From positions 1-64,000 of the forward strand of contig QKJQ01000033.1 of NCBI GenBank assembly GCA_003249225.1: a DNA stretch of 64,000 nucleotides, given 5' to 3'. This DNA is from Clostridia bacterium. Lineage in GTDB: Bacteria > Bacillota > Clostridia > Lachnospirales > Lachnospiraceae. Every line of letters starts with the position of its first letter. Position 1 is the first letter of the stretch. A model generated the notes under the pieces. It saw nothing but the letters and a program-made list of their open reading frames with translations, did no database searches and had not been told where the DNA came from. A program made the position numbers and the translations under genes. Shown one piece after another: positions 15,072 through 57,871 of the stretch.

Positions 15072-15170
15072 AAAATCATCTTTTCTAAATTATTTTAGGT
15101 ATATTATACCACATATCATGATTATGTAAATAATATAGCTGGATTAAATCTTATATTAATAAGACTTCAC

Positions 15171-15212
15171 ATGAAAAAAAGGCAATGGAATATTCCAAAG
15201 CCTTTTTTTCAT
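15171..15212. terminator. Bidirectional intrinsic terminator
   Basis: ATGAAAAAAAGGC (15171-15183) pairs perfectly with GCCTTTTTTTCAT (15200-15212), with an inner palindrome TGGAATATTCCA in the loop. The A/T runs are built into the stem, so it can work both ways; its main client is the LysM gene on the minus strand. Confidence 0.8.
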
Positions 15213-15254
15213 GCTTGATATAAGATTTTGATTGTAGGTAAAGTAAATTAAATA

Positions 15255-34815: not shown

Positions 34816-34855
34816 AGGCAAAGAAAAAGCCATATTCCATTATGGAATATGGCTT
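34816..34855 (-). terminator. Intrinsic terminator of rny
   Basis: AAGCCATATTCCA (34827-34839) and TGGAATATGGCTT (34843-34855) form a 13-bp stem with a 3-nt loop. On the minus strand it is followed by TTTCTTTG, 8 bp after the rny stop. Confidence 0.85.
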
Positions 34856-49949: not shown

Positions 49950-50180
49950 TTATTGCATTATTTCTACAACTACTTTTTTGTCATCCTTCGTTGCAGCAGC
50001 TTTTACTAAGGTACGGATGGATTTTGCAATACGGCCCTGTTTGCCGATTACTTTCCCCATATCGTCCGCAGCAACCCTTAATTCAACAACGATTGCCTTC
50101 TCAGTTTCTGTTTCCGTGACAACAACTTCTTCAGGATGATCAACGAGTGCCGAAGCGATTACTTGAACCAACTCTTTCAT
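49950..50180 (-). CDS. khpA: KH-domain RNA-binding protein KhpA
   Basis: 76 aa, one KH domain with G-K-V-I-G-K-Q-G-R-I-A (the G-x-x-G loop). It pairs with KhpB in Firmicutes and lies between rpsP and rimM as usual. Confidence 0.93.
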   Translation of the reverse strand: MKELVQVIASALVDHPEEVVVTETETEKAIVVELRVAADDMGKVIGKQGRIAKSIRTLVKAAATKDDKKVVVEIMQ

Positions 50181-50204
50181 ACCTGTTTCCCTGTCCCTTC
50201 AAAA

Positions 50205-50450
50205 TTATTTCACGATTCCAGCCTTTTTGAATAATCTGTTAACTGTTTCAGTTGGCTGAGCGCCATTTGCAAGCCATTTCTGTGCTAATTCTTCATTTAC
50301 CTGAAATGCACTAGGTTCTTTCGTAGGATCGTAAGTGCCGATTTCCTCGATAAATCTGCCATCTCTTGGGAATCTTGAATCAGCAACTACAACTCTATAA
50401 AAAGGTGCTTTTTTCTGACCCATTCTTTTTAATCTGATCTTTACTGCCAT
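50205..50450 (-). CDS. rpsP: 30S ribosomal protein S16
   Basis: 81 aa from ATG 50450 with AGGAGGTG upstream. [17 protein letters not shown] is the S16 signature. Confidence 0.97.
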
Positions 50451-50504
50451 GATTTCACCTCCTTTCAACTATGTGAAAACAAAACGAATAAATGTTTATT
50501 TATC

Positions 50505-51857
50505 TTATAAACCAAACGGAAGTTTCATTCCGCCGAATCGTTTTTTACCTTTACCACCCATCATTCCGGAAAATTGTTTCATCATCTTCTTCGCCTGCTC
50601 GTACTGCTTAATGACGCGGTTGACATCACTGATATCGACACCGGCACCTTTGGCAATACGGCTTTTTCTTGAGGGGTTCAGAAGATTTGGATTGTATCGT
50701 TCTTCCTTTGTCATGGAGTAAATAATGGACTCCATACCTTTGATGGAACTTTCCGCTTCATCAAGGTCAACGCCTTTCATCTGCGAACCCATGCCGGGCA
50801 TCATGCTCATGATGTCTGACAGGCCACCCATTTTTTTCATCTGTTGAATCTGTTCCAAATAATCATTAAAATCAAATTCTGCTTTTTTTAATTTAGCAGT
50901 CAATTTTTTTGCCTGTTCCTCGTCGATCTCAGCTTCCGCTTTTTCAATCAGCGTCAGAACATCGCCCATTCCAAGAATTCTGGAAGCCATACGATCCGGA
51001 TAGAATTGTTCAACATCGGAAAGTTTTTCACCGACTCCGGTATAAAGAATCGGCTTACCGGTCACAGCACGTATGGAAAGTGCCGCACCACCTCTTGTAT
51101 CGCCATCCAGTTTTGTCAGGATGACACCTGTAATTTCAAGTTTTTCATTGAAAGTTTCAGCAACATTAACTGCATCCTGTCCGGTCATGGCATCGACCGT
51201 CAGTATAATATGAGCGATATCGATTTGTTCTTTGATCTCTATAAGCTCATCCATCATTCCTTCATCAATATGAAGACGTCCGGCTGTATCTATAATTACA
51301 ACATTATTGCCATTTTTCGCGGCATGTTCCATCGCCGCCTTTACGATGTTCACCGGTTTGTGATTCGTTCCCATGGCAAATACCGGTACCTGTTGTTTTT
51401 CACCATTGATCTTTAACTGTTCGATTGCTGCCGGACGGTAGATATCACAGGCAACAAGCAATGGCTTTTTACCCTTTGCCTTGAATTTACCGGCTAGTTT
51501 TGCTGCCATTGTCGTCTTGCCGGCACCTTGAAGTCCACACAACATAATAACCGTGATTCCGGAAGGTCTGAATTCAATCTCTGTGGTCGTACTGCCCATT
51601 AGATTGATAAGTTCTTCATGAACGATCTTGATGACCATCTGACCCGGTGTAAGGCTTGACATTACATCCTGACCGATTGCACGTTCCGTAACGGTACTTA
51701 TAAAGTTCTTAACAACTTTAAAATTAACATCTGCTTCAAGTAAAGCCATCTTCACTTCTTTCAGCGCTGCTTTTACATCAGCTTCAGAAAGCCTGCCTTT
51801 TCCACGCAGATTTTTGAATATATTCTGTAATTTATCTGATAAACTGTCAAATGCCAT
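50505..51857 (-). CDS. ffh: Signal recognition particle GTPase Ffh
   Basis: 450 aa: N domain, G domain (G-L-Q-G-A-G-K-T-T, D-T-A-G-R, T-K-L-D-G-D) and Met-rich M domain (from about 300) that binds SRP RNA and signal sequences. Its start is one base after the ylxM stop. Confidence 0.98.
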   Translation of the reverse strand: MAFDSLSDKLQNIFKNLRGKGRLSEADVKAALKEVKMALLEADVNFKVVKNFISTVTERAIGQDVMSSLTPGQMVIKIVHEELINLMGSTTTEIEFRPSGITVIMLCGLQGAGKTTMAAKLAGKFKAKGKKPLLVACDIYRPAAIEQLKINGEKQQVPVFAMGTNHKPVNIVKAAMEHAAKNGNNVVIIDTAGRLHIDEGMMDELIEIKEQIDIAHIILTVDAMTGQDAVNVAETFNEKLEITGVILTKLDGDTRGGAALSIRAVTGKPILYTGVGEKLSDVEQFYPDRMASRILGMGDVLTLIEKAEAEIDEEQAKKLTAKLKKAEFDFNDYLEQIQQMKKMGGLSDIMSMMPGMGSQMKGVDLDEAESSIKGMESIIYSMTKEERYNPNLLNPSRKSRIAKGAGVDISDVNRVIKQYEQAKKMMKQFSGMMGGKGKKRFGGMKLPFGL

Positions 51858-51858
51858 T

Positions 51859-52290
51859 TTATAGCTCCTTTAAAATCCGGTCGGTAATTTCATTAATAGT
51901 CTGAAGCTTGTCCTGATAATCACTTGCTTCTTTTTCTTCTGAAATCATTGATAAAGAGTTATCTTTGTTTAGAAGCTCACCGGTTATGTTCTGGATCTGA
52001 ATGATCCGCGATTTTGCTTCTTCAAATTTAGAATGCAAACGCAGCTTCTCCTCATAATTACGAAGTTCAATGCTGCATCTTTTTATTATATCATGAACAC
52101 CCTGACGGCTGATTCCTTCTACTTCCGCGATCTCGCTTAAAGAAAGATCGTTGCAGATGTAATCCTCAAATATATGACGCTTATGTTCCGAAAGCAGTTC
52201 TCCATAAAAATCAAATAACAAAGAGAGTTCTACAACTTCCCGAAGAGAATCCCTGCTATCTTTATCAATTGTATGTTTCTGCTCTTTCAT
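51859..52290 (-). CDS. ylxM: YlxM-family HTH protein (SRP-associated)
   Basis: 143 aa. Sigma-70 region 4-like HTH (E-D-Y-I-C-N-D-L-S-L-S-E-I-A, then I-S-R-Q-G-V-H-D). YlxM accompanies ffh in Gram-positives and modulates SRP. Here the C-terminal extension is Glu/Lys-rich. Promoter and SD lie in an inverted repeat (52296-52328). Confidence 0.93.
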   Translation of the reverse strand: MKEQKHTIDKDSRDSLREVVELSLLFDFYGELLSEHKRHIFEDYICNDLSLSEIAEVEGISRQGVHDIIKRCSIELRNYEEKLRLHSKFEEAKSRIIQIQNITGELLNKDNSLSMISEEKEASDYQDKLQTINEITDRILKEL

Positions 52291-52295
52291 ATGGC

Positions 52296-52357
52296 ACCAC
52301 CTGTAAAGTTATTTTCTTTACAGGTGGTAGTATACCTTAAGTCGGATGACCTGTCAA
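52296..52357 (-). promoter_or_regulatory. ylxM-ffh promoter with perfect 13-bp inverted repeat
   Basis: TTGACA (52357-52352), a 17-bp spacer and TATACT (52334-52329). Directly downstream, ACCACCTGTAAAG (52296-52308 on plus) and CTTTACAGGTGGT (52316-52328) are perfect inverted copies with a 7-nt centre, covering the expected transcription start and the AGGTGG SD. It could be an operator for a dimeric repressor (possibly YlxM itself) or an SD-hiding hairpin. Confidence 0.75.
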
Positions 52358-52510
52358 GCATTTTTATTGACAGTGTTGAAATTCAATCTGATACAATTTA
52401 TGTCATTTTTATTCGAGGTTGCTGTACACTTTATTATCCGTCTTTGCAATTCGTTTTACTTTTTTGCTTTTATCCTCCAACTTTATCATTCAATTTACTC
52501 ACTAGCTTTG

Positions 52511-52549
52511 TTAGCTGATTTTGTTAACTGATTTTGTTAGGTGATTTTG
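52511..52549. repeat. Three tandem 13-bp repeats
   Basis: TTAGCTGATTTTG, TTAACTGATTTTG and TTAGGTGATTTTG lie end to end, differing at two positions. Probably slippage-prone; no role evident. Confidence 0.6.
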
Positions 52550-52588
52550 TTTTCCGGCTTTTGTTATATTGGTTCTTTCTTCTTCAGA

Positions 52589-52626
52589 GAATTAATCGGA
52601 TCCGTGTTCCGATGATTAATTCATCC
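52589..52626. repeat. 38-bp exact inverted copy of flippase gene sequence
   Basis: This stretch is the exact reverse complement of 42413-42450 inside the SpoVB/MurJ-like gene; the likeness extends a few bases upstream (TCTTCAG). In frame here it would read I-N-R-I-R-V-P-M-I-N-S-S before diverging and stopping, so it is a gene fragment, not a working gene. The segment also folds into an imperfect hairpin. Confidence 0.7.
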
Positions 52627-52665
52627 CTTTCCCGCTTTCTATATCTCTTATGATTACAGGCTGCT

Positions 52666-53373
52666 TTATCTTGTAAACAGATAAAGACCGATTCCAACAG
52701 CAATGGTAAGATTTAGCGAATCTACTTCTTCGGTCTGCGGTATGATCACACTGGTGCCGATCGTAAGAAATGAATCATCAAGCCCGGTAGCTTCATTTCC
52801 AAAAATCAGGGTAAACAATTCCGGTTTCGGACACTGATCCGCTGTAAGCTGCCTTGTTGCATTTAACATAAATGGAAAGAGTTCCTGCTTCGTATAAATG
52901 CTTCGGTATTCTTCAAAAGAATCAAAATACTGAAAGCGTAATCGAAACAATGCACCCATGGAGGAACGGACGACTTTTGGATTAAAGATGTCAGACCCAG
53001 GATTTATGATAGCAATATCTTTGATACCAAAACCGACCGCTGTCCGAAGAATCGTTCCAAGGTTCCCCATATTCCCGGGATTTACAAGCATAAGATGTGA
53101 TCGGGATTTATCAAGTTCACAATCAAACCTCTTAAATACGCCAATTACATAAATATTCTCTTTGTTTCCCAGTTTCTGAATCATTTTATCATTCACAGTC
53201 ATGGGAAGGTTATGTCTGTGACACTCTTTCTCCAGTTCATCTTTATCAAAAGATGAATGTACAAAAACATGCAGAACAAGATCCGGTCTTGTCTTTATAA
53301 GTTCATAGGTTGGAAACGCTCCCATCGTATAGGAGTATTCCATTCCCTTTTTGTATGGTTTTATTGCATCCAT
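52666..53373 (-). CDS. TrmH/SpoU-family RNA methyltransferase
   Basis: 235 aa. The three SpoU motifs are present: N-P-G-N-M-G-N-L-G-T-I-L-R-T, F-G-N-E-A-T-G-L and S-L-N-L-T-I-A-V-G. An N-terminal substrate-binding part (1-90) resembles the RNA 2'-O-ribose methylases. Target RNA (rRNA or tRNA) unknown. Confidence 0.9.
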   Translation of the reverse strand: MDAIKPYKKGMEYSYTMGAFPTYELIKTRPDLVLHVFVHSSFDKDELEKECHRHNLPMTVNDKMIQKLGNKENIYVIGVFKRFDCELDKSRSHLMLVNPGNMGNLGTILRTAVGFGIKDIAIINPGSDIFNPKVVRSSMGALFRLRFQYFDSFEEYRSIYTKQELFPFMLNATRQLTADQCPKPELFTLIFGNEATGLDDSFLTIGTSVIIPQTEEVDSLNLTIAVGIGLYLFTR

Positions 53374-53518
53374 TCGATTCTCCTGTTTGAAATGTCAGTC
53401 GGTTCTGTCTTACTGCTGCTCAATATACAGACAGTAATCCTTCGTTTAATAATCTCCCACTGCTTAGAATATCATAATGCCTGAAGTACTTTAATGCAAG
53501 AGACAAGATACAGACTAA

Positions 53519-55057
53519 TCAAATTCTAATGTCGCTGACAGACCGCTGCTCAACCCCTTTATAAAGCAAAGAAAGATGTCTGCCAAGATGTTCTTTCAGG
53601 AACGCTGCATATTCTGTATCGTACTGTCTCCATAAGGCGAAAAGTTTGTCTTTGAATATGTAGTGGTCCTTCTCTTTCGCTGTAAGTATAAAACCATACG
53701 TTATATGAAGCAGTTGTCTGATTGCTGAATTTGAAGTAATCAGTTCTTTTAACTCAATGTCTTTGTATTCAGCAAGGTCAGGAAGATCGCTGCGCTTTGT
53801 AGAAATATGATAATATTTTTTTGCTTCTTCGAATTTCGTTAATGAAAAGGCTGTAACTTCACGGAATAATTCAGGGCTTTCAACTGCAACGACTTTTAAT
53901 GCTTCCAGCCAGCTGGTACCGGCTGTTTTTACATGAAAATGCCCTCTTGTGTATTTTCCGATCAATTCATAGACAGAGAACTTGTCAGAACCCGAATGAA
54001 TGCTCAGTTTATAACCAAAGTACCTGGCGATTGCTGCATGAAGCTTTATGTCTTGTTCAAAAAGCGCAAGGTCACCAATGTAGTCAATGGCCTTTTGAAA
54101 TTCACCGTAAAATCTGGGAGCCATGGTTTTAAGTTCGACCCCAGCTTTTTTTAGTTCATACGCTATGTAAAAATGCTGCAGCGGTGTAGTCGAATGCATT
54201 GTCTCGTCAATGGACAGCTCAAGGTCTGCATTTGTTTTGTCTGCTTTAAAATACGTATTATAAACTTCTGTCGTGTATCGTATGGCATCGCCATATATGT
54301 ACTCCGCTTCGTATACATCTTCTTCCGTAAAATGCAGACAGCAGTCTTCTACAATAAAATCCCTGGAAAGATAGTAGTTCATTGTCTCTTCTTTTATGTA
54401 TAAGATTTTCTTTATACCAGTATAATCAATAGGATCATTACTTTGAACGATATGATCACTGCAGTCAAGCGTAATCATAGTAAAGCCAAGACGCAGTGCA
54501 TATTCAATCTCATCGAAGGTCTTTAAATGATCACCATCTGCACCGTACCCACCCTTGTAACCTTCACGAAAGACGGTAAAAGTAGTACTGTCAAGTACAT
54601 CCTCGTAGGTCCTTCCTGTCATTTTGAGTTCACGCATCGACTGTTGAGCAAGTACAGGTGTGGCATCGTATTCATGAAAAGCCTCAAGATGTCCATAACC
54701 GGCAATTCCAAGGCGATCGCCGACACCAAAGGTACGGTCTCTTGAAAGGACTCGGACCGGTGCGGTAAATGGAAACAGAGCCTGAAGCTTTAAAGCATTT
54801 TCATGGGACAGAAAAACATTAGTAATCGGCAAAGGTTTATTATCACTACTCAAAAACGGCAGACCATCGAACTCTTTCGCCTCCTGTCCAGCCACAATCA
54901 GACAGTCTTTTTTTTCACTGCGAATCATAAAATACCAGCTGTCAAGGTGCTTATGAATGGATGAAATATAGATTTCCCCTTTAAAAAAAGAAGCTATTTC
55001 ACTTTTTGTTATTCCTAATTCCTTTAAAAATAAATACAATTCCTTATGTTCTTCCAT
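53519..55057 (-). CDS. uxaE: Tagaturonate/fructuronate epimerase, UxaE family
   Basis: 512 aa from ATG 55057 (GGAGGT SD). Matches the UxaE family (G-V-G-D-R-L-G-I-A-G-Y-G-H-L, G-A-D-G-D-H-L-K, S-I-H-S-G-S-D-K-F). It would interconvert D-tagaturonate and D-fructuronate, linking galacturonate to the glucuronate branch. Divergent from a LacI-type regulator and uxaC, which supports this. The promoter overlaps a LacI-type operator. Confidence 0.8.
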   Translation of the reverse strand: MEEHKELYLFLKELGITKSEIASFFKGEIYISSIHKHLDSWYFMIRSEKKDCLIVAGQEAKEFDGLPFLSSDNKPLPITNVFLSHENALKLQALFPFTAPVRVLSRDRTFGVGDRLGIAGYGHLEAFHEYDATPVLAQQSMRELKMTGRTYEDVLDSTTFTVFREGYKGGYGADGDHLKTFDEIEYALRLGFTMITLDCSDHIVQSNDPIDYTGIKKILYIKEETMNYYLSRDFIVEDCCLHFTEEDVYEAEYIYGDAIRYTTEVYNTYFKADKTNADLELSIDETMHSTTPLQHFYIAYELKKAGVELKTMAPRFYGEFQKAIDYIGDLALFEQDIKLHAAIARYFGYKLSIHSGSDKFSVYELIGKYTRGHFHVKTAGTSWLEALKVVAVESPELFREVTAFSLTKFEEAKKYYHISTKRSDLPDLAEYKDIELKELITSNSAIRQLLHITYGFILTAKEKDHYIFKDKLFALWRQYDTEYAAFLKEHLGRHLSLLYKGVEQRSVSDIRI

Positions 55058-55083
55058 AGCTACCTCCATTTTGCGTATTTTAA

Positions 55084-55131
55084 TGAAAGCGTTTACAACA
55101 TGATTATAGGATTTACACATAGATATGTCAA
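55084..55131 (-). promoter_or_regulatory. uxaE promoter with LacI-type operator
   Basis: TTGACA (55131-55126), a 17-bp spacer and TATAAT (55108-55103). TGAAAGCGTTTACA (55084-55097), a LacI-family-like half-palindrome, lies just behind the -10, suited to block transcription. Confidence 0.7.
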
Positions 55132-55178
55132 CAAAACTTAAAATAATTATACAAATTCACGATGTAATTATTATCTTC

Positions 55179-55254
55179 TTGTCATTGAGAAATTACTATA
55201 GTATAATAATTTCGAACAATTTTGATATGTATTTCATGAATGTAAGTGCTTACA
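55179..55254 (+). promoter_or_regulatory. Promoter and operator of the LacI-type regulator
   Basis: TTGTCA (55179-55184), a 17-bp spacer and TATAAT (55202-55207). TGTAAGTGCTTACA (55241-55254), with TGTAAG and CTTACA arms, lies 34 bp after the -10, which suggests autorepression by a roadblock. Confidence 0.7.
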
Positions 55255-55308
55255 TTTAACAGTGAATCTTGAAAATAAGGTAAATTCACCCGAATCTATG
55301 GAGGAATC

Positions 55309-56325
55309 ATGAATATCTACGATGTATCACAAAAAGCAGGTGTTTCAATCGCTACTGTTTCAAGAGTAATAAACGGCAACCAGAATGTCAGTGAGAAAAC
55401 AAAACAAAAGGTATTGAATGTCATGCAGGAACTGGGTTACACCCCAAATGTTTTTGCTCGTGGTCTTGGTTTAAATACAATGAAGACGATTGGTATCCTT
55501 TGCCTTGATTCTTCGGATCCGTTCCTTGCCAATGCGGTCTTCTATCTTGAACAGAATCTGCGAAAGTATGGATATGATATAATTCTCTGCTGCACCGGCT
55601 ATGATCTTGTCAATAAGCAAAAATACCTCCAGCTTTTATTATCAAAACGTGTAGATGCAGTAATCCTGGTGGGTTCTTATTTTCTTGAAACAGTTCGTAA
55701 AGACAATGCTTATCTCCTTGAAGCAGCAAACAATATTCCTATTATAATTTTGAACGGATATCTAAGTCATCCAAACATCTATTGTTCTTTATGTGATGAT
55801 TATCAGTCTGTCTTTGATGCAACAACAAGACTTCTTGAAAGCGGCAGAAAACGTGTTCTTTATCTTTATCATACCAAATCATACAGCGGTATGCAAAAAC
55901 TAAATGGATACAAAGATGCTGTTGCTGCTTTCGGAATGTCAGTCGACGAATCTCTGCTTGTTCTGGCTAAGAACAATATGCAGCAGACACAGGATATTTT
56001 ATCAAAGGTATATGATGAGGGATTGCAGTTTGATGCGATCATGGCAGCAGAGGATCTTCTTGCCGTTGGTGCTATAAAATTCGCAAGAGAAAAAGGCTTA
56101 CGGATACCGGAAGAGCTCTCCATCATCGGATATAACAATTCTTTACTATCAACAGCCTGTGAGCCGGAACTTACATCGGTAGACAATCATATTGAAACAT
56201 TAAGCATTACTGCTGTTTCCTCACTTATGCGAGTATTTGAAGGACATGATGTGCCGAATAAGACAACGATATCCAATGATTTAATACTCCGTGGAACAAC
56301 AGATTTCACAAAACAATATTATTAA
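55309..56325 (+). CDS. LacI-family transcriptional regulator
   Basis: 338 aa. N-terminal HTH and hinge (V-S-Q-K-A-G-V-S-I-A-T-V-S-R-V-I-N-G), then a periplasmic-binding-like sugar domain (about 60-330). The neighbours uxaE and uxaC and the two operators make it the local hexuronate regulator; the effector is inferred. Confidence 0.92.
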   Translation: MNIYDVSQKAGVSIATVSRVINGNQNVSEKTKQKVLNVMQELGYTPNVFARGLGLNTMKTIGILCLDSSDPFLANAVFYLEQNLRKYGYDIILCCTGYDLVNKQKYLQLLLSKRVDAVILVGSYFLETVRKDNAYLLEAANNIPIIILNGYLSHPNIYCSLCDDYQSVFDATTRLLESGRKRVLYLYHTKSYSGMQKLNGYKDAVAAFGMSVDESLLVLAKNNMQQTQDILSKVYDEGLQFDAIMAAEDLLAVGAIKFAREKGLRIPEELSIIGYNNSLLSTACEPELTSVDNHIETLSITAVSSLMRVFEGHDVPNKTTISNDLILRGTTDFTKQYY

Positions 56326-56357
56326 GAAAAATATTTTTAAGAAATGAGGTTCGAATC

Positions 56358-57755
56358 ATGGAATTTATGTCGAAGGATTTTTTATTAAAAACAGAAACTG
56401 CAAAAAAACTTTACCATGACTATGCAGAGACGATGCCGATTATTGACTATCATTGTCACATCAATCCGCAGGAAATTGCGGAAGACAGAAAATTTGATAC
56501 CATTACACAGGTCTGGCTTGGTGGCGACCACTATAAATGGAGACAAATGCGTTCAAACGGAATCGATGAAAAATATATTACAGGGGATGCCAGTGACCGT
56601 GAGAAATTTAAAGCATGGGCTGCTACACTTGAAAAGGCCATCGGAAATCCTTTGTATCACTGGAGTCACCTTGAACTTCAGCGCTATTTTAACATTTTTG
56701 AGCCTCTGACATCTGAAAACGCTGACAAGATCTTTGATTTATGTAACGAACAGCTTGCAAAAGATGATATGAGTGTTCGTAATATTATTAAAAAATCAAA
56801 TGTAACAACCATCTGTACGACTGATGATCCGGTGGATGATTTAAAATGGCATAAAATGCTTGCAAATGATACCAGCTTCGATGTTAAGGTGCTTCCGGCC
56901 TGGAGACCGGATAAAGCCATGAACATTGAAAAGCCGGAATTTAATGATTATATCAATACACTGGCAAAGGTTGCCGGCTGTACGATCAATACATTTGAAG
57001 ATTTAAAGAAGGCTATTGTTTCTCGAATGGAATTTTTCCATAGTTCTGGCTGTTCTGTATCGGACCATGGAATTAACTTTGTTGTATACCGTCCGGCATC
57101 TGCTGAAGTAATTGAATCCATTTTTAATAAAAAACGTAACGGCGGCGAAGTTACAGAGCTTGAAGAACTTCAGTTCAAAACTGCTTTTATGGTATTTATC
57201 GGTAAAGAATATCACAGACTTGGCTGGGTTATGCAGCTTCACTACGGCACTAAGAGAAATAACAATACATTAATGCTTAAAAAGCTTGGACCGGATACCG
57301 GCTATGACTGCATTAACAATTATGCTCCGGCAGCAGAGATTGCAGACTTTTTAAACGCACTGAATACGACCGATCAGCTTCCAAAGACAATTCTGTATTC
57401 ACTGAACCCTAATGACAATGCGGTAATTGGAACCATACTTGGATGCTTCCAGAACAGCTCCACAGTAGGCAAGATTCAGCAGGGTTCTGCATGGTGGTTC
57501 AATGATCATAAGAAAGGCATGACAGATCAGATGATCTCTCTTGCTAATCTTGGACTGCTGGCGAACTTTGTCGGTATGCTGACTGATTCAAGAAGCTTCT
57601 TATCCTATACAAGACATGAGTATTTCAGAAGAATTTTATGCGAACTTCTTGGAAACTTTGTGGAAAATGGCGAATACCCTGCTAACATGGAGTTCCTTGG
57701 AAATATGGTAAAAGATATTTCTTATAATAATTGTGTACGTTATTTTGGATTTTAA
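56358..57755 (+). CDS. uxaC: Uronate isomerase UxaC
   Basis: 465 aa. D-Y-H-C-H-I-N-P near the start is the metal site of the family (amidohydrolase superfamily). It converts D-glucuronate to D-fructuronate and D-galacturonate to D-tagaturonate, the substrates of UxaE. 32 bp after the regulator, so both are probably cotranscribed. Strong terminator follows. Confidence 0.95.
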   Translation: MEFMSKDFLLKTETAKKLYHDYAETMPIIDYHCHINPQEIAEDRKFDTITQVWLGGDHYKWRQMRSNGIDEKYITGDASDREKFKAWAATLEKAIGNPLYHWSHLELQRYFNIFEPLTSENADKIFDLCNEQLAKDDMSVRNIIKKSNVTTICTTDDPVDDLKWHKMLANDTSFDVKVLPAWRPDKAMNIEKPEFNDYINTLAKVAGCTINTFEDLKKAIVSRMEFFHSSGCSVSDHGINFVVYRPASAEVIESIFNKKRNGGEVTELEELQFKTAFMVFIGKEYHRLGWVMQLHYGTKRNNNTLMLKKLGPDTGYDCINNYAPAAEIADFLNALNTTDQLPKTILYSLNPNDNAVIGTILGCFQNSSTVGKIQQGSAWWFNDHKKGMTDQMISLANLGLLANFVGMLTDSRSFLSYTRHEYFRRILCELLGNFVENGEYPANMEFLGNMVKDISYNNCVRYFGF

Positions 57756-57775
57756 TCCGCTATCATAGGTGAAGT

Positions 57776-57816
57776 AAAAATGGATGGTTCAGAGAAAATC
57801 TGAACCATCCATTTTT
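57776..57816. terminator. Bidirectional terminator between uxaC and fhs
   Basis: AAAAATGGATGGTTCAGA (57776-57793) pairs perfectly over 18 bp with TCTGAACCATCCATTTTT (57799-57816), loop GAAAA. It serves uxaC (plus) and fhs (minus). Confidence 0.92.
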
Positions 57817-57871
57817 ACTATGAGTCCGGTGACATACGTTTTTTCAAAGGTACGTCAACCTACTGCATTGA

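Follow-up and report, generated by a model that had tools for sequence, protein, structure and literature searches.

A conserved inverted repeat at the ylxM-ffh promoter of a Lachnospiraceae genome as a candidate operator for YlxM

The window analysed here is a stretch of 64,000 nucleotides (positions 1 to 64,000 of contig QKJQ01000033.1, assembly GCA_003249225.1, Lachnospiraceae), in which ylxM is read from the minus strand with its ATG at 52290 and is followed by ffh. The co-directional genes behind ffh, which possibly belong to the same operon, include trmD, assigned by Pfam, and others that we take from their sequences to be rpsP, a KH-domain gene, rimM and rplS. Elsewhere in the window, positions 53519-57755 hold an apparent hexuronate cluster with a UxaE-type tagaturonate epimerase (Pfam) and, by reading, a LacI-type regulator and a gene resembling uronate isomerase. 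The window protein belongs to the YlxM/UPF0122 (p13) family, scoring 102.9 bits against NF045758 (cut-off 80) and 86.8 bits against PF04297 (cut-off 22.7), is encoded next to ffh and resembles both family structures, 1XSV and 1S7O. A search with it among named organisms returned two loci, with L032, from a Lachnospiraceae bacterium, 54% identical. The preliminary description of this DNA had called YlxM a helix-turn-helix (HTH) protein, and a sigma-region-4-like helix-turn-helix was indeed found at residues ~48-71. The features of the locus are as follows.

51859-52290, minus strand: ylxM, 143 aa, the proposed regulator, with the HTH around residues 48-71
50505-51857, minus strand: ffh (SRP54, 450 aa), one base past the ylxM stop codon
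47988-50468, minus strand: co-directional genes behind ffh, possibly of the same operon (open reading frames)
52352-52357, minus strand: -35 box TTGACA (consensus match only)
52329-52334, minus strand: -10 box TATACT (consensus match only)
52316-52328, minus strand: promoter-proximal repeat arm, just 3' of the -10 box on that strand (computed repeat)
52296-52308, minus strand: ATG-proximal repeat arm, containing the Shine-Dalgarno sequence (computed repeat)
52297-52302, minus strand: Shine-Dalgarno sequence AGGTGG (from sequence)
52302-52322, minus strand: site O2, TGTAAAG-N7-CTTTACA, exact motif match (motif scan)
52352-52372, minus strand: site O1, TGTCAAT-N7-CTTGACA, one mismatch (motif scan)

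A perfect 13-bp inverted repeat by the ylxM start and Shine-Dalgarno sequence had been noticed in the preliminary description and was confirmed by computation. Its arms, ACCACCTGTAAAG (52296-52308) and CTTTACAGGTGGT (52316-52328), are 100% complementary and separated by a 7-nt spacer, and the repeat starts immediately past the -10 box, the order on the minus strand being TTGACA-17-TATACT-ACCACCTGTAAAG-AAAATAA-CTTTACAGGTGGT-GCCAT-ATG. The promoter matches 11 of 12 consensus letters with a -35/-10 spacing of 17 nt, and the usual distance from such a promoter predicts a transcription start near 52322 or 52321, so that the flank ACCACC is probably untranscribed and most of the Shine-Dalgarno sequence would lie outside the stem. 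Perfect repeats with arms of 13 and spacers of 3-20 are expected by chance 0.017 times per 64 kb (60 dinucleotide shuffles); the window has four separate perfect inverted repeats of such size, and the ylxM repeat is therefore by itself unusual, not unique. Further perfect inverted repeats with arms of at least 13 bp lie at 57774-57818, 15170-15213 and 34827-34855. The ylxM repeat is significant because the 7-bp core of each arm is conserved; the outer 6 bp are not. Among the genomes examined, just one more from this genus yielded a ylxM match (L003), and there the core is kept but the flanks ACCACC/GGTGGT are not. An Rfam search of positions 50000-54000 returned no match up to E 1, a plasmid collection gave no match, and the exact 13-bp repeat was not found in viral contigs.

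The conserved core corresponds to site O2, which begins 6 nt past the -10 box and covers the predicted start and the 5' leader. O1 is a second, weaker copy over the -35 box, and its right half contains that box. The preliminary description, whose interval (to 52357) does include the promoter, made no mention of O1.

Conservation in relatives, which the preliminary description had proposed to check, was assessed in regions upstream of ylxM collected by searches in the genus, the family, the class, the listed relatives and the phylum, together with fetched stretches. With the initial motif TGTMAAG-N7/8-CTTKACA, 110 of 155 loci carried an exact site and 137 one that was exact or a single mismatch away, compared with 0/155 for the reversed control (at most one mismatch), after six loci without a ylxM match had been dropped. 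The motif was widened to TGTHAAG/CTTDACA after TGTTAAG/CTTAACA forms had been seen outside the class, and TGTHAAG-N7/8-CTTDACA is the conserved heart of the site. Allowing up to one mismatch over its 14 defined letters, the widened motif was found within 300 bp upstream of ylxM at 202 of 219 distinct loci (167 exact), against 0/219 in reversed sequence and 0.14% in composition shuffles; in this set identical upstream stretches are merged, and L001, L034, L035, L236, L237, everything from L224 on and the short L159 are left out. By batch, such sites occur in 32/32 loci of L002-L033, 114/128 drawn in the class, 26/29 from a further search and 30/30 outside the class. Of the 17 misses, 13 are at two mismatches, among which are several evident palindromes (for example GGTCAAG/CTTGACC), and four are at five; three of these four, from one genus, have a one-mismatch site farther upstream (~335, 364 and 520 bp). 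In the upstream scan L167 had no site in view and the best candidate at L187 was unconvincing, which counts against an autorepressor. A conserved palindrome at its own promoter, as expected of an autorepressor gene, is thus present at most ylxM loci, and the window repeat is a local copy of a putative DNA operator found before ylxM in most relatives examined.

The position of the site relative to the promoter falls into two main classes. Among the 202 loci it lies downstream of the -10 box only in 110, over the -35 box only in 61 and at both positions in 23, the window included; four loci have other arrangements and four had no promoter called. The gap between the -10 box and a downstream site is 4-7 nt in 82 of 134 cases and 1 nt in 16. 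Both placements are usual for repressors. The -35 placement is partly expected, one half-site being itself a -35 box; the other half-site is not. In the right half of downstream sites TTTACA is commoner than TTGACA (105 T, 15 G, 14 A), a preference that may avoid a stray -35 box. Core position 4 of the 134 downstream sites is complementary in 96, a G-T pair in two and unable to pair in 36, and the other core positions are mostly near-invariant. Beyond the core, the flanks of downstream sites are symmetric above chance to ~5 bp with varying sequence; this symmetry is left unaccounted for by core recognition and so speaks against the operator reading, and it might stem from palindrome-perfecting mutation or from a hairpin formed in read-through RNA.

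Genome-wide, an exact match was found in 64 of 98 relatives. Among the matches listed there are 75 places in 63 genomes (G544, which has an exact match, is missing from this count), of which 62, in 59 genomes, lie within 300 bp upstream of a ylxM match. Also among the matches listed, 13 exact places lie away from ylxM and a backward-read control pattern gave 13 places in all, so places away from ylxM are at background level. Among these 13, G554 has one at ffh, G054 has one in the ffh-rpsP interval, and the window's genus accounts for two that precede nadA. The ylxM and ffh genes of G554 are unlinked, and its single exact site stands before ffh, with none at ylxM. In G054, which counts against the operator reading, the exact site (L236:1475-1496) falls in the ffh-rpsP interval, and ylxM, a short way downstream of an ilvA-like gene, lacks a site. 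The genome of the window itself has the N7-8 pattern at two places, ylxM and before nadA, compared with one for the backward-read control, and with N6-9 there are two places against three in the control, a count that speaks against the operator reading. The site before nadA (a name read from the sequence), TGTAAAGATATATGACTTGACA, has the same core and occurs at L224:1472-1493 (G000 C39) and L225:557-578 (G001); in these two species of the window's genus it is possibly a second target or possibly chance. Exact sites at L229:1507-1527 (G029) and L231:1457-1478 (G028) precede an apparent rplU and a DUF177-rpmF pair, other translation genes whose names were likewise read from sequence.

Genomes without a ylxM match provide a complementary comparison. 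Thirty genomes without a ylxM match were searched for Ffh, and 11 had a full-length or nearly full-length ffh; two of these genes were at a contig end and were set aside, leaving nine genomes. None of the nine stretches of DNA upstream of ffh held a site at one mismatch or fewer; in one of them (L239) there is a site at two mismatches. The corresponding Fisher test gives p 8e-10 with kinship ignored, a value that is overstated because the nine include two genus-sharing pairs and some assemblies are 83-90% complete. In L243 (G556, no ylxM match), CATCAAGTAATAATGCTGTAAA follows a -10-like box ~100 bp ahead of where the examined ffh stretch starts, and with four mismatches it is possibly a decayed operator.

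The link between site and protein was examined through the likeness of YlxM to sigma region 4. Local alignment with Escherichia coli RpoD (L333) needs no gaps across region 4.2 and sets R62 opposite R584, Q63 opposite E585 and H66 opposite R588; against the Pfam Sigma70_r4 profile YlxM scores 23.6 bits (E 3.6e-5), just below the cut-off of 24.1. The likeness comprises a gapless HTH and a half-site, CTTKACA, that contains a TTGACA/TTTACA-like -35 box, whereas YlxM differs from sigma-70 region 4.2 in being free-standing, in its inverted paired sites and in having Gln63/His66 for Glu585/Arg588. According to the relevant passages of PMC2613000, sigma70 becomes less specific at -33 with the substitutions E585Q and R588H; the equivalent of -33 is the degenerate position of the operator motif. 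Gln occupies position 63 in 99% of 205 proteins, and the commonest residues at position 66, in 166 proteins, are His (51%), Tyr (26%) and Arg (13%). The structure model of YlxM (three sequences, mean pLDDT 84.9) retrieved 1s7o and 1xsv as top Foldseek matches (E ~0.001 or below) and, more weakly (E 0.05-0.35), sigma factors and the repressors ArdK and KorA.

Residue 62, within this helix-turn-helix, covaries in part with the outermost bases of the site. Of 219 YlxM proteins 215 were aligned, six with a gap at residue 62, and since class-level proteins comprise the gene start only, columns past ~66 are thinly sampled; Arg is present in 199 of the 209 proteins with a letter there. A first, plainer test of consensus outer bases against residue 62 gave p 0.012. 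Both outermost bases are changed in 6/10 loci with non-Arg62 and in 1/170 with Arg62 (p 3e-8; 29 loci with Arg62 but no inner-exact site set aside). For this symmetric change residue 62 came top of the tested columns, the next column reaching 3e-4, in a test framed after the exceptions had been seen. A prediction that non-Arg62 proteins would generally have changed sites was then written down, and the families of three exceptions were searched. In the first (30 loci examined, of 61 genomes) residue 62 is Lys in 29/30, and of these 29 both outer bases are changed in 15, one in eight and none in four, with no core in two; the one member with Arg62, L277, bears out the prediction by having the consensus. 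The third family (30 loci, of 36 genomes) is nearly all Tyr62 with the consensus kept, and for Tyr62 the prediction failed.

Pooled, both outer bases are changed in 21/37 loci with Lys62, 1/178 with Arg62 and 0/30 with Tyr62, and any outer-base change occurs in 29, 14 and two, respectively; the pooled set counts G486 (L132/L283) and G489 (L144/L323) twice, and with each counted once the Lys62 figure becomes 20/36. A looser core finds the site in 255 of 281 loci of this set, against 4/281 in the reversed control; 22 Arg and two Lys loci without the GTHAA/TTDAC core were set aside, and L302, which is not ylxM, was left out. The sample is uneven, 30 of the 37 Lys62 rows coming from one family (f32), and among five Lys62 lineages counted by hand the outer bases are changed in f32, f10 and f42 and the consensus is kept in L038 and in L106 with L133. 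The covariation suggests a direct residue-base contact, as far as sequences can indicate one; in sigma70, according to the corresponding passages of PMC2613000, R584 contacts -31, the base adjoining the covarying one, which speaks against the operator reading.

Taken together, we consider it likely, on comparative sequence grounds, that the repeat is the operator of YlxM and that a YlxM dimer represses ylxM-ffh and thereby sets the SRP level; the identity of YlxM as the binder, binding as a dimer, repression and titration by Ffh or SRP RNA are the inferred parts of this reading. The dimer would place two sigma-region-4-like HTH domains on two inverted -35-like half-sites (CTTKACA). On O1, over the -35 box, it would compete with sigma, and on O2, over the start site, it would block RNA polymerase. 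Free YlxM would repress ylxM-ffh, and perhaps also the translation genes behind, holding SRP at a set level; it would report the output of the operon, and its uptake by Ffh and SRP RNA would relieve repression. Passages of PMC8546722, citing Williams 2014, describe YlxM of Streptococcus mutans as binding Ffh and SRP RNA and modulating GTP hydrolysis; there and in passages of PMC4993169 the family is an SRP accessory, a described role that counts against the operator reading, and these passages contain no DNA operator or autoregulation. A promoter upstream of ylxM is described for Bacillus subtilis in part of PMC10100781, and ylxM stands in a table of DNA-binding proteins in PMC5344976. The open-licence literature, as represented by the passages found, those of PMC3814617 and PMC4943231 included, yielded no account of a YlxM operator, and a literature text search on the two half-sites listed matches that were unrelated by title.

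Among known systems, the arrangement resembles autogenous repressors in having an operator at the gene's own promoter with two repressor-like positions, and KorA/ArdK show a weak fold and profile likeness to YlxM. YlxM differs from both in being also an SRP accessory without a plasmid context, and its repression is a proposal. Feedback of the ribosomal-protein type likewise has part of a ribonucleoprotein controlling its own synthesis; here the control is proposed at DNA, not mRNA.

Other explanations of the repeat are less probable to different degrees. The DNA evidence by itself shows just a sequence-specific site, and this site could be the conserved operator of another, unlinked repressor controlling the SRP operon; we regard such a repressor as unlikely, given the linkage of the site to ylxM or ffh, the failure to find it in the nine ffh genomes without a ylxM match (9/9) and the association of its outermost bases with YlxM residue 62. 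The site before nadA in two genomes of the window's genus brought NiaR into consideration; compared by eye with the one published motif checked, TACWRGTGTMTWKACASYTRWAW, in the pneumococcal part of PMC5343564, both core and spacing differ. There is little probability, by our estimate, that the repeat is a merged remnant with no regulatory role, namely a terminator of the upstream gene fused with the -35 box and copied by descent: at L018, L025 and L040, with the site over the -35 box, an extended stem is followed by a T-run by eye, yet the window repeat has no T-run and no terminator-like site was called there by the intrinsic-terminator test, and sites with the same core past the -10 box in 134 loci would be left unexplained.

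The preliminary description had also suggested that the repeat acts as RNA, in a hairpin hiding the ylxM Shine-Dalgarno sequence in early-starting transcripts; transcripts reading through from upstream would be a second case. RNA spanning the whole repeat folds well (z -3.45), and the flank symmetry with changing sequence described above points the same way, but RNA from the predicted starts 52322/52321 has no folding advantage over shuffled RNA (z +1.0 and +1.1), with most of the Shine-Dalgarno sequence outside the stem. Further, at the 61 loci with their sole site over the -35 box the site is not transcribed by that promoter, core position 4 cannot pair in 36/134 downstream sites, and the core is nearer to invariant than pairing alone requires; we therefore think a hairpin of this kind improbable, and this part of the preliminary description is not upheld. 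Its guess of a DNA operator with YlxM autoregulation has gained from conservation, promoter position, near-uniqueness in genomes, the absence of the site where no ylxM was found and the partial covariation with the recognition helix, binding being so far a prediction.

More tentatively, and with more doubt than belief on our part, a free-standing sigma-region-4-like repressor, YlxM, might read paired -35 boxes across much of the phylum, unbound YlxM shutting off ylxM-ffh, ribosomal-protein and rRNA/tRNA-maturation genes and so coupling targeting capacity to SRP assembly. A dedicated operator before ylxM-ffh would, if true, give YlxM, whose gene is conserved beside ffh, a concrete, testable job, with residue 62 and the outermost base pair as a named residue and base pair to test, and a sigma-type DNA-reading helix would then be acting in repression, over the -35 box of its own gene.
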